A DNA stretch of 64,000 nt. Origin: Hyalangium gracile. Lineage in GTDB: Bacteria; Myxococcota; Myxococcia; Myxococcales; Myxococcaceae. Location: the NCBI RefSeq assembly GCF_020103725.1, contig NZ_JAHXBG010000006.1, forward strand, positions 1 to 64,000, in the 5' to 3' direction. The position numbers and the translations under genes were made by a program. Below the pieces are notes generated by a model that saw only the letters and a program-made list of their open reading frames with translations, did not search any database and was not told the DNA's origin. Below are positions 5,329 to 9,770 of the stretch, piece by piece (the stretch's first letter is position 1; each line of letters opens with the position of its first letter).

Positions 5329-6117
5329 TCAGCGCTTCGGCGGGCTGTAGTAGCGCCTGAGCCAGCGGCTCAGGCCATCCAGGCCCGGGAAGAGCACGCG
5401 CTCCGTCACGTTCGCCTGGTCCAGCTTGTCCCGGACCTCCCACTTGAGCGAGGCCGGGACGATGAGCCGGCGCACGCCCTTCTTCTGGCTCTCCAGGAAG
5501 GTGTCCAGCCGGTGCAGCGGGCCGTTCATCACCGAGAAGAGCGCGAACTGGTTCACGATGCGCTCGTCCAGGGACGGCGGCTCGAAGAAGAGCACGAAGG
5601 GGTGCTTCGTCAGCCGGTCGAAGGCCGGCAGATCCGTGGCCACCGCCGCGAGCATCTCCGCGGTGAAGACGTCCGCGCCCTCCTCGCGCAGCTGGGCCTG
5701 GAGGGGCTTCGGCAGCAGCCGGTTCGTCTCGTGGTAGTCCACGCACCACACCGCCCCATCCACGTCGTACTGCTCCGGGTGCTCCGTCAGGAAGTGGAGC
5801 GCGACGTAGGGGCTGAACGTCCAGTCCAGCAGCCGCGTGGGCAGCCCGTGGTGTTGCGCCAGCGCCAGCCAGTCCCAGACCGTCTCGCAGGGCCGGCTGC
5901 CTCCGCGCGCGTACTTGCGGAAGGCGCGCAGCAGATCCCTCTCGTGAGCGGCGAAGGCCCCCTCGTGGCGGTTGAGCGAGGTGGAGAGGTCATGCGCGGA
6001 CGCGGGCACGCCGCGGAAGGCGATGCTCGGGCGGAAGCGGCTGATCTGCTCGTTCCACGAGCCCGAGAAGAGCGCCTCCTGCAGCTCGATCCAGCTCTCG
6101 ACGCGTTGTTCGTTCAC
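5329..6117 (-). CDS. FRG domain-containing protein
   Basis: About 262 residues with a clear FRG domain (named for a conserved Phe-Arg-Gly): SIAFRGVP near the N-terminus, then WDWLALAQHHGLPTRLLDWT and SPYVALHFL, the diagnostic helix-turn region. FRG domains occur in many bacterial and phage proteins, often in accessory or defence-like loci, and their biochemistry is poorly known. GTG 6117 with GGAA upstream is preferred; the frame stays open to a weaker GTG at 6174. No nuclease or membrane domain is fused to it. It converges with the small membrane gene, and a receiver gene lies upstream on the same strand. Confidence 0.83.
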   Translation of the reverse strand: MNEQRVESWIELQEALFSGSWNEQISRFRPSIAFRGVPASAHDLSTSLNRHEGAFAAHERDLLRAFRKYARGGSRPCETVWDWLALAQHHGLPTRLLDWTFSPYVALHFLTEHPEQYDVDGAVWCVDYHETNRLLPKPLQAQLREEGADVFTAEMLAAVATDLPAFDRLTKHPFVLFFEPPSLDERIVNQFALFSVMNGPLHRLDTFLESQKKGVRRLIVPASLKWEVRDKLDQANVTERVLFPGLDGLSRWLRRYYSPPKR

Positions 6118-6297
6118 ACCGGTTCCAGCACGGCCCACCGCGGGTCCGTGGCTGTGCCACCAGTATTCACCCACACGCGGCTACCACAGCGTTGGATGCG
6201 CGGGATGCGTGGGCCAGCCCACAGTGGCGGCACCCGGGCGTACACCACTCCACAGGCGGCGAGCGCCGAGCGTGTGGCAGCGCACAGGCCCCAGGGC

Positions 6298-6702
6298 TCA
6301 GGCCACCTGGCAGGTGCTCGCCTTGGAGGGCGAGGTTCCCCGCGGGTGGGTGAGGGCACGGAGGATGCGCAGCAGCTCCGACGGAGAGAACGGCTTGCGC
6401 AGCAGGCACACCGCTCCCTCGAAGCTGGGCAGCTCCAGGTCCACGCCCGTGGTGAGCACCACGGGCAGGTCCGCCAGCTCGCGCTGATTGTGGAGCAGCC
6501 GGATCAAATCCCTGCCCTGGATGTCGGGCAGCACCCAGTCCAGCAGCAGCACATCCACCCGGGGCTCGGTGAAGAAGGCGCGCAGTGCCTCGAAGGCGGT
6601 GGGGCAGGGCACCACGCGGTAGCCCGCCTGCTCCAGGAGCTCCGTCACCGTCTCGCGCACGTCGCCATCATCTTCAGCCAGGACGACCACGGGGCGCGAC
6701 AT
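6298..6702 (-). CDS. Stand-alone response regulator receiver
   Basis: A 134-residue receiver domain: VVVLAEDDGDVRE (acidic pocket), VDVLLLDWVLPDIQG (phospho-Asp in LLLDWVLP), VVLTTG and LLRKPFSPSELL (switch Lys). There is no DNA-binding or enzymatic output domain. ATG 6702 is chosen because GAGGTGAG lies upstream; an in-frame GTG at 6729 is an alternative. No kinase is adjacent on the same strand, so it is an orphan regulator, common in myxobacteria. It lies about 180 bp upstream of the FRG gene, and operon membership with it is uncertain. Confidence 0.9.
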   Translation of the reverse strand: MSRPVVVLAEDDGDVRETVTELLEQAGYRVVPCPTAFEALRAFFTEPRVDVLLLDWVLPDIQGRDLIRLLHNQRELADLPVVLTTGVDLELPSFEGAVCLLRKPFSPSELLRILRALTHPRGTSPSKASTCQVA

Positions 6703-6860
6703 GCGGGGGCTCACCTCATTCACGGACACGGAGGGCTCACGCAGGGCCGAGGTCCGATGCTCGTGCCTGCCGACGCACTACAACCTCCGTGTCTCCTGGC
6801 CGCGTTCCCTCACTTCGGGGGCGGCTGTTGCTCGCCTGCCCGCTGGGGGCAGGCAGGCGT

Positions 6861-7228: not shown

Positions 7229-7840
7229 CTAGGAACGGGGCTTCGCGCCCGCTCGCCGCGCGGCGTCCGCGTACACCTCGTACGGCTGGGCGCCGACCAC
7301 CCGGAGGTTGCCCACGAAGACGGTGGGGATGCCGCTGACACCCAGCGAGTTGCCCTCGGCCCGCAGCGCATCCACCCGCGCCTGGTACTCCGGAGCGTCC
7401 ATGGCGGCGAGCGCCTGCCTGGCCGGCAGCCCTGCCTGCTCCGCGACCCGGCCGATCACCTCTTCATCCTCGAGGTTCTCGCCCCGGTGCCAGTAGGCCT
7501 CCATGGCCGCCTCGCGGAAGGCGTGCAGCTTGCCCTGGTCGCGCGCCCACTCGGCCAGCGCGATGGCGCGCCGCGTGTTGTTCATCAGCTCGCGCCGCCG
7601 CATGGTGGTGATGCCGAACATGCGGGCCACCTGCTCCACGCGGGCCACCATGGCGTCGTAGCGGCCCGGGAAGAGCTTCTCCGCGAGGATGCCGCCCTTG
7701 GGCGTCTCCGGGCGAAGCTCGAAGCCCCGCCAGTCCAGCTCCACGTCATACTCTGCTTGCAGCCTGACCAGGCTGCTCTGCTCCGCGATGAAGCAGAAGG
7801 GTCAGACGAAGTCCGAGTACAGCCGGATGGGTACGGGCAT
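7229..7840 (-). CDS. DsbA/FrnE-family oxidoreductase, predicted selenoprotein (in-frame TGA)
   Basis: A 203-residue thioredoxin-fold protein of the FrnE-like DsbA group. ATG 7840 has a near-ideal ribosome site (AAGGAGGG, five bases away) and encodes MPVPIRLYSDFV; the next codon, 7804-7802, is TGA, and the frame then continues without a break as PFCFIAEQSS to the stop at 7229. The TGA lies exactly at the first active-site position of the family motif CPxC, giving U13-P-F-C16. Downstream the frame keeps the helical insert and the cis-Pro motif GIPTVF. A hairpin of bacterial SECIS type follows the TGA. An annotation that stops at TGA would start this gene at 7744 and lose the active site. The main alternative is a recent nonsense change of Cys to stop. 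Likely role: thiol-disulfide or peroxide chemistry; no signal peptide is seen, so it is probably cytosolic. Confidence 0.82.
7759..7776 (-). promoter_or_regulatory. Putative bacterial SECIS hairpin
   Basis: On the coding strand the sequence GCAGCCT-GGTC-AGGCTGC forms a perfect seven-base-pair stem with the loop GGUC. The loop starts 32 bases after the TGA, within the roughly 16-37 base window known for bacterial SECIS elements, and has G in its first two positions, as in the GGUCU loop of the E. coli fdhF element that SelB binds. It lies inside the coding sequence, as expected for bacteria. A second, weaker hairpin (7776-7798, loop AUCGC) sits between it and the TGA. Confidence 0.65.
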
Positions 7841-7964
7841 GGGGGCCCTCCTTGGCGGCTCCCTCTTATCCTCGTTACGCGGGCGTTGCCAACCCTGCTC
7901 GTCGAGCAGCCGGGCAATGCGCACATTCCTTCACCCGGAGCGCGCTTTTGCGGAAGATGCGCCC

Positions 7965-9770
7965 GTGTTCACGCCTGCCCGATCGCGTCCGACTCCCGCT
8001 CGCAGCCCCCTGGCGCTGCTGGCCCTGTGCGTCCTGTTCGCCCTGAGCGGTTGTACCGCCTTCAGCCGCGCCGTGAAGGAGGGTGACCAGCTCACCTCCG
8101 AGCGCAAGTGGGCCGAGGCCGAGGCCGCCTACCTGCGCGCGCTCGCCGTGGACCCCGAGGCCTCCGAAGTCACCGTGAAGCTGCGCGCCATGCGCAAGGA
8201 CTGGAGCCAGGAGGTGTACGCGGAGGCCGAGCGCATCCACGGCACCGGAGACCTGCCCGCCGCCCAGAAGCTGCTCGTCCGGGCCCTGGAGCTGGACGGG
8301 GAGAACGAGCCCGCGCGAGCGCTGCTGACACGGACATTGGATGCGCGCGTGGAGGCGGCGCAGAAGGCCTTGAAGGAGGAGCGCCTGCAGGATGCGCGGG
8401 CCGAGTTCGACGCGGTGCTCGCCGTGTCGCCGGACCACCCGGCGGCGCGCAAGGGCGTGGACCAGGTGCAGGTGGCGTGGGCCAGGCGCTGGTTCAAGAC
8501 GGGGCAGCAGCTCGAGGAGGGCGGCAAGCTGGGCAACGCGCTGCTGGCGTACCTGCGCGCCGATCAGGAGCGGGTGGGCGCCACGGCGGCCCGGGAGCGG
8601 GCCGAGGCGGTGCGCCAGAAGCTGCGCGACGACGTGGCCTTCCTGGTGGTGACGACGCCGGTGGAGGACAAGGCGCAGTCGCCGGACGTGGTGCAGCGGC
8701 TGGGCGCCGGGCGTCTGGCGTCCATGCTGCCCAAGGAGCTGCCCATCCGCGTGGTGACGGATGCCCCCGAGTCCAAGGTGGGCGTGAAGCTGGACCTGAC
8801 GCTGGAGCGCGTGCTGCCCCTCAAGGCGGTGGAGCAGTCCCAGCGCAGCCACCGGTACCTGGCCGGCAACCGCTCCGTGCCCAACCCGCGCCGCCGTCAG
8901 TACGAGGATCGGCTGCTGCAGGCCGAGCGCACGATGGAGGAGGTGGAGCGCAAGCAGGCCGGGGCGCTGCGCGAGTATCTGCGCCGGCAGGCGGAGCTGA
9001 ACACGGTGCGCCAGACGGCCGAGCGCTGCCGGGAGCGCGAGCGCAAGGTGTGCCTGGAGCTCATCCAGCGGTGCGGCGAGGCGGCCAGCGACCTGGAGAA
9101 GCCCGGCCAGGTGCCCGAGGAGTGCAACCCGGCGGGCTGCGCGACGCGGCAGTGCGGCCAGGAGGAGCAGCTGCTGGCCTCGAACGCCGCGGTGGTGCTG
9201 CAGCTGGAGAAGCAGCTGGATGGGATGCTCGAGCAGGCGGAGTCGCAGCGGCGCGAGGTCACCCGCTCCAGGGACCTCGTGTTCCGCGAGCCGATGACGG
9301 TGGACGAGCCGATGTACTCGGACTTCGTCTACGACGTGGAGCTGCACCGGCTGACCGTGAAGGCCACCGTCACCTCGGTGCTGAGGGACCTGCTGGCGGC
9401 GCAGGCGGCGCCGGCCCCGGTGACGCAGGACTATGACGTGGCGCACGAGGACTTCAGCCACAAGGGCTATGACCGGTACGGCGTGCTGGCGGACCCGGTG
9501 CAGCTGCGCACCGAGCTGGAGCTGCGCGTGGACGTGGGCGACAAGGCGATGGGAGACCTGGCCCGGCGCGTGATGGAGCGCTTCGACGTGTACCGCCAGA
9601 AGCGGCTGGAGGACGCGCGGCGCGGCATGGTGCGGCCCGGCGCCGAGGACGTGGTGGAGACGGCGGTGCGCGTGCTGCTGCTGACCGCGGACAAGCCCCC
9701 CGCGGACATCCTCCAGCCGGTGGCGCAGGCGCGTGGCCTGCAACGCCCGGAGGCCATCTTCGGCAAGTAA
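7965..9770 (+). CDS. TPR-like repeat lipoprotein
   Basis: About 601 residues. The N-terminus is a lipoprotein signal ending in LFALSGC (Cys about residue 30 from GTG 7965), so the mature protein is probably membrane-anchored. Residues about 35-200 hold degenerate TPR-like helical repeats (KWAEAEAAYLRALAVDP, LPAAQKLLVRALELD, LQDARAEFDAVLAVSP). A coiled-coil section follows, with a Cys-rich stretch (CREREREK-like, then CNPAGCATRQCGQ) and a beta-rich C-terminal part. ATG 7917 is in frame upstream, but GTG 7965 gives a better signal peptide. It diverges from the selenoprotein gene with about 120 bp between the starts. It may be an envelope scaffold; no enzyme motif is seen. Confidence 0.8.
   Translation: MFTPARSRPTPARSPLALLALCVLFALSGCTAFSRAVKEGDQLTSERKWAEAEAAYLRALAVDPEASEVTVKLRAMRKDWSQEVYAEAERIHGTGDLPAAQKLLVRALELDGENEPARALLTRTLDARVEAAQKALKEERLQDARAEFDAVLAVSPDHPAARKGVDQVQVAWARRWFKTGQQLEEGGKLGNALLAYLRADQERVGATAARERAEAVRQKLRDDVAFLVVTTPVEDKAQSPDVVQRLGAGRLASMLPKELPIRVVTDAPESKVGVKLDLTLERVLPLKAVEQSQRSHRYLAGNRSVPNPRRRQYEDRLLQAERTMEEVERKQAGALREYLRRQAELNTVRQTAERCRERERKVCLELIQRCGEAASDLEKPGQVPEECNPAGCATRQCGQEEQLLASNAAVVLQLEKQLDGMLEQAESQRREVTRSRDLVFREPMTVDEPMYSDFVYDVELHRLTVKATVTSVLRDLLAAQAAPAPVTQDYDVAHEDFSHKGYDRYGVLADPVQLRTELELRVDVGDKAMGDLARRVMERFDVYRQKRLEDARRGMVRPGAEDVVETAVRVLLLTADKPPADILQPVAQARGLQRPEAIFGK

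Follow-up and report, generated by a model that had tools for sequence, protein, structure and literature searches.

An in-frame TGA very probably read as selenocysteine at the active site of a DsbA/FrnE-like gene of Hyalangium gracile

In the stretch of the Hyalangium gracile genome analysed here (64,000 nucleotides, hereafter the window), a minus-strand gene of the DsbA/FrnE family very probably reads an internal TGA as selenocysteine (Sec) in a thiol-redox active site. We are highly confident that the gene codes for a FrnE-type DsbA oxidoreductase with Sec13 as its predicted nucleophile, its UGA being decoded via SelB and a hairpin with a GGUC loop. The source genome amounts to 11.7 Mb in 81 contigs; its listed completeness is 100% and its listed contamination 3.25%. 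The features of the gene are collected in Table 1.

Table 1. Features of the selenoprotein gene and its surroundings in the window
Feature	Position	Strand	Remarks
DsbA/FrnE-like selenoprotein CDS (predicted)	7229..7840	-	203 aa, Sec = residue 13; translation, Pfam DSBA, 110 homologous loci
In-frame TGA, read as selenocysteine (very probably), first residue of the U-P-F-C active site	7802..7804	-	TGA or Cys codon in 110/110 fetched loci
TGC, Cys16 of the UPFC motif, putative resolving Cys	7793..7795	-	invariant in alignments A3 (26 rows) and A4 (33 rows)
First hairpin past the TGA, not specific to recoding	7777..7797	-	formed in Cys orthologues too
SECIS-like hairpin, 7-bp stem GCAGCCU/AGGCUGC, apical loop GGUC from 33 nt past the UGA	7759..7776	-	UGA-linked
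Pro172 of the GIPT loop	7325..7327	-	invariant in alignments A3 and A4
Shine-Dalgarno-like AAGGAGG	7847..7853	-	sequence; upstream stretch of L025 closely similar

The presence of an in-frame TGA in a DsbA/FrnE-family reading frame is confirmed. As an earlier note on this DNA had described, ATG 7840 stands behind a near-perfect ribosome binding site (AAGGAGG, at a spacing of 6 nt) and is followed by twelve codons (MPVPIRLYSDFV), by the TGA and then by PFCFIAEQ..., in a frame that remains open until the stop ending at 7229. When this frame is translated, the TGA is its one internal stop. The translation matches Pfam DSBA (PF01323) over residues 5-193, thus spanning the TGA, with an E-value of 2.8e-38 and 132.1 bits versus a gathering cut-off of 25.6; this match and the aligned codons place the TGA at the first active-site Cys of the family, turning CPFC into UPFC, just as had been proposed. 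The same note expected that automatic annotation would begin the gene at 7744 and lose the active site, and the mechanical standard-code open reading frame does start at GTG 7744 and leaves the active site out.

Homologous loci were gathered from 96 genomes of the family by protein query, of which 93 matched and 30 loci were kept, and by a pattern search of genome contigs, which contributed 80 more; the resulting 110 loci include the gene of the window itself (L024). The codon aligned to the TGA is TGA in 19 of them, TGC in 51 and TGT in 40, numbers that are not to be read as frequencies because one search pattern spelled the active site with Cys. Hence the alignment suggested in the earlier note returned either TGA or Cys at every locus, and the random stops elsewhere in the gene that it had considered telling against recoding are absent from the matched stretch of all 110. 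Beyond the fetched loci, many further family matches list one TGA (its presence, not its position), and one such match, in G052, lists one TGA and one TAG. In G083, a genome 87% complete, a distant match with one TGA is found together with no selA match, which counts against the Sec reading. At 47% identity or above there are 22 loci, 13 with UGA and 9 with Cys, including one Cys form (L103) that spans residues 1-47 only. Since the protein of L059 is identical to that of L033, the two probably coming from the same genome, the 13 UGA loci code for 12 distinct proteins. Every one of the rows selected for the two alignments (26 and 33) has C16, P172 and either C or U at position 13.

These data bear on the possibility that the TGA is a genuine stop, belonging either to a pseudogene or to a gene whose true start is GTG 7744, where the mechanical open reading frame indeed begins. 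We regard it as highly improbable: such a start would cost the protein the family's strand 1 and active site, in 19 of the 110 loci a TGA falls precisely on the active-site codon while the matched stretch is free of further stops, and the residues ahead of the TGA are conserved. In the sole pair tested (L024 versus L025), dN is far below dS in codons 2-32, which precede the GTG start (0.014 and 0.16, respectively), while the remainder of the gene gives a dN of 0.175 and a dS of 0.52.

The genes needed for Sec decoding, whose absence the earlier note had named as evidence against recoding, were all found in the H. gracile genome. The selA product scores 577 bits to TIGR00474 (cut-off 268), and selB, a 672-aa open frame, 285 bits to TIGR00475, or 308 with its neighbour in frame (cut-off 242). 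A tRNA-Sec scores 71.6 bits to RF01852 (cut-off 47) and is called tRNA-SeC with anticodon TCA by ARAGORN; a second RF01852 match (L010), barely above the cut-off with 47.3 bits, was discarded, being a tRNA-Ser according to ARAGORN. The selD product scores 377 bits to TIGR00476 (cut-off 125), and the gene contains one in-frame TGA (L020:1531-1533) within SHCAGUAAKL, the U of which we take to be the SelD active-site position. The best hairpin after this TGA has the loop GGUCU at +33. UGA decoding thus very probably extends to at least one further gene of this organism, namely selD itself. When formate dehydrogenase alpha was sought as a further selenoprotein, five weaker matches were obtained, none of them above the cut-off and none with a TGA. 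NCBIfam gave a sub-threshold match alone, to Rcas_1661_fam_Se (36.3 bits versus 190).

Compared with shuffled sequences, the 125 nt surrounding the TGA have a better fold (z -2.33, 5 of 200 shuffles as good), with two hairpins after the TGA. Support for recoding had been claimed from a hairpin at this place, and this holds for the second one, which is linked to UGA, but not for the one nearest the TGA, which is common to Cys orthologues. Among 11 distinct UGA rows and 8 distinct Cys rows, the first hairpin has 86.4% of its pair cells formed in UGA forms and 84.4% in Cys forms; it was rejected as the SECIS since Cys orthologues retain it about equally often. For the second hairpin the values are 97.4% and 53.6%. 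The bSECIS model, as given in the accessible part of PMC13188914, describes an apical loop of 3-9 nt with G at loop position 1 or 2, the loop lying 16-37 nt past the UGA. Hairpins were scored by these rules over the 43 nt after the codon, and the loop, the spacing of +33 and the 7-bp stem of the window gene all fall within the model. In all 13 UGA loci the best hairpin places its loop at +32 or +33, carries G within loop positions 1-2 and has a stability of -7.7 to -11.1 kcal/mol, while the nine Cys orthologues reach -5.5 kcal/mol at best, at other positions; the sole Cys orthologue with its best stem at +33 is L061 (4 bp, -1.7). The form GCAGCCU-GGUC-AGGCUGC or one close to it occurs in 13/13 UGA loci, L054 with its loop UGGACC being the odd one, and in none of the nine Cys orthologues, which are without the SECIS hairpin throughout. 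AGG stands at codon 26 in 12 of the 13 UGA loci and in 0/9 Cys loci, although it accounts for 19 of 339 Arg codons in a sample of six window ORFs; the one UGA locus with CGG at this codon is presumably L054.

The stem of the second hairpin is weak evidence by itself, because bSECIS-type stems of equal stability occur at 142 of the 3514 other codons scanned in a sample of window ORFs and an equally good stem arises in 28 of 5000 synonymous recodings (an equally good overall fold in 2 of 2000). The argument for recoding is therefore drawn from the split between UGA and Cys forms in the hairpin and not from the stem alone. Covariation in the hairpins did not exceed that of a shuffled control, the UGA rows being too alike, and the Rfam model SECIS_1 (RF00031) gave no match in the H. 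gracile genome, a result that is uninformative since it detected none of 14 controls either. One hairpin thus parts UGA from Cys orthologues cleanly, which picks between two neighbouring candidates and makes the second hairpin the likely SECIS of the group.

Readthrough of the UGA by other means, with a near-cognate tRNA or by insertion of Trp or Cys, is extremely improbable. Although the inserted residue is predicted here from sequence, selA, selB, tRNA-Sec and selD are all present, selD likewise contains a TGA, homologues have Cys and not Trp at the aligned position, and the hairpins of the DsbA-like gene and of selD have the same loop spacing. Even though Cys codons are the commoner ones among the fetched loci (91 of 110), the chance of a sequencing error for TGC or TGT is vanishingly small, the identical TGA in other genomes, where it comes with a hairpin absent from the Cys forms, making such an error very unlikely.

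With selenocysteine at position 13, the protein has the traits of the DsbA family, which is defined by a CxxC-type active site and the Pro of a cis-Pro loop: U13-P-F-C16 and P172 are both present, the latter, in the GIPT loop, at what we take to be the cis-Pro position of the thioredoxin fold. In the AlphaFold2 model (mean pLDDT 96.5) the first strand sets in at residue 3, too early for a leader to fit before it, and the modelled protein is thus probably cytoplasmic. FrnE of Deinococcus radiodurans (PDB 5cnw, 5co3, 5xwh) is the nearest solved relative, being closest both in sequence (5.2e-19) and in fold (TM 0.83-0.85 by query, 27-28% identity), followed in structure by SCO1869, YjbH, kappa-class GSTs and HCCA isomerases. 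This FrnE shares a CP(W/F)C active site and is described as cytoplasmic; it differs from the window protein in having Cys for Sec, in its greater length and in a C-terminal CxxxxC (PMC8945050). The accessible text of that paper describes FrnE as cytoplasmic and often carrying a C-terminal CxxxxC, some FrnE proteins being without it. The motif is missing from the window protein, since C16 is the sole Cys of its translation, and U13/C16 would have to act without CxxxxC.

We infer a thiol-disulfide oxidoreductase activity for this protein. In the proposed mechanism, the GGUC-loop hairpin, 33 nt past the UGA, would recruit SelB together with its Sec-tRNA(UCA), and the ribosome would insert Sec at the UGA. 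Sec13 would then attack substrate disulfides and Cys16 would resolve the selenenylsulfide, and, because there is no other Cys and so no C-terminal CxxxxC, the enzyme may be recycled by a general cellular reductant external to the protein.

Its divergent neighbour in the window (7926-9767, with a provisional start) codes for a protein that matches TPR weakly, and a response regulator gene lies downstream (6298-6729). Inspection by eye of the ORFs around two homologous loci, L055 and L058, revealed no shared partner. Elsewhere in the window, positions 5332-6174 of the minus strand code for an FRG-domain protein (PF08867, 4.9e-25), a domain that occurs in some defence-type genes.

The statement that DsbA/FrnE-like selenoproteins had already been found in other bacteria agrees with the accessible parts of the literature. 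DsbA-like UxxC selenoproteins are reported from the Sargasso Sea under COG2761 (PMC1088965) and from GOS data (PMC2398784), one is listed for Anaeromyxobacter dehalogenans (PMC1794560), and DsbA-like selenoproteins are tabulated in PMC5029168, PMC9312934 and PMC13188914; the table row in PMC5029168 holds the numbers 41 and 45, taken here as organisms and genes. According to these sources, such proteins have been on record since 2005, and the window protein is therefore filed under, and adds to, a known type. The published proteins (PF01323/COG2761), compared with the UPFC group by family and motif, belong to the same Pfam family and have Sec at the first active-site Cys of UxxC. In the accessible open-licence literature we did not find the UPFC group, its SECIS or the split between Sec and Cys within the genus, and little was found there on myxobacterial selenoproteins beyond the Anaeromyxobacter entry (PMC1794560); the terms DsbA, Myxo and FrnE are absent from the main text of the deep-Sep paper (PMC12013277) in its accessible form.

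A second DsbA-like group of the Myxococcaceae (L038, L040, L043, L045, L046, L049) likewise has TGA at the first active-site Cys. It differs from the window protein in being 36-39% identical to it, in reading UPWC instead of UPFC, in a loop GUG at +22 and in forming a separate clade. A bSECIS-type stem of -10.7 kcal/mol was found in 6/6 of its UGA loci, and its 13 fetched Cys loci reach -3.6 at best.

Out of the 110 loci, 37 were used to build a tree, and 17 of these have Sec. The Sec label requires six changes on this tree, compared with a mean of 12.6 in shuffles (0/500 as low), and the starred branches force at least three changes. Because the tree is midpoint-rooted and three rows have long branches, it is read only as repeated exchange between Sec and Cys, with no direction.

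Among the seven genomes of the genus that were searched, the UGA orthologue is present in two (G000, G041) and the Cys form in four (G036-G039), and G040 is without a close match. A TGA in selD, counted as presence and with its position established for the H. gracile genome, occurs in all seven UGA genomes tested (H. gracile, G004, G006, G007, G041, G043 and G044) and in none of the four Cys genomes. G037-G039 retain selA together with a strong tRNA-Sec, their DsbA-like gene having Cys and their selD lacking a TGA. G036 (2 contigs, listed as 100% complete) shares the Cys-type DsbA-like gene and the TGA-free selD, but its selA match reaches 23 bits only and its best RF01852 match 46.8 bits, both below the cut-offs. 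Distant DsbA-like matches of 27% identity with one in-frame TGA, at G040:C85:29579-30172 and G039:C17:155427-156011, are perhaps other selenoproteins. The pattern of UGA and Cys, selD, selA and tRNA-Sec in the genus fits a stepwise loss of Sec, with these TGA-containing matches as a caveat, and we see about an even chance that the genus is part-way through losing selenocysteine. If so, its genes would be a ready comparison set for SECIS function and for the exchange between Sec and Cys. The gene very probably represents a FrnE-like Sec enzyme, with recent Sec/Cys exchange within one genus, in the large-genome group of the myxobacteria, and a redox enzyme that standard-code gene calling would shorten and deprive of its active site.
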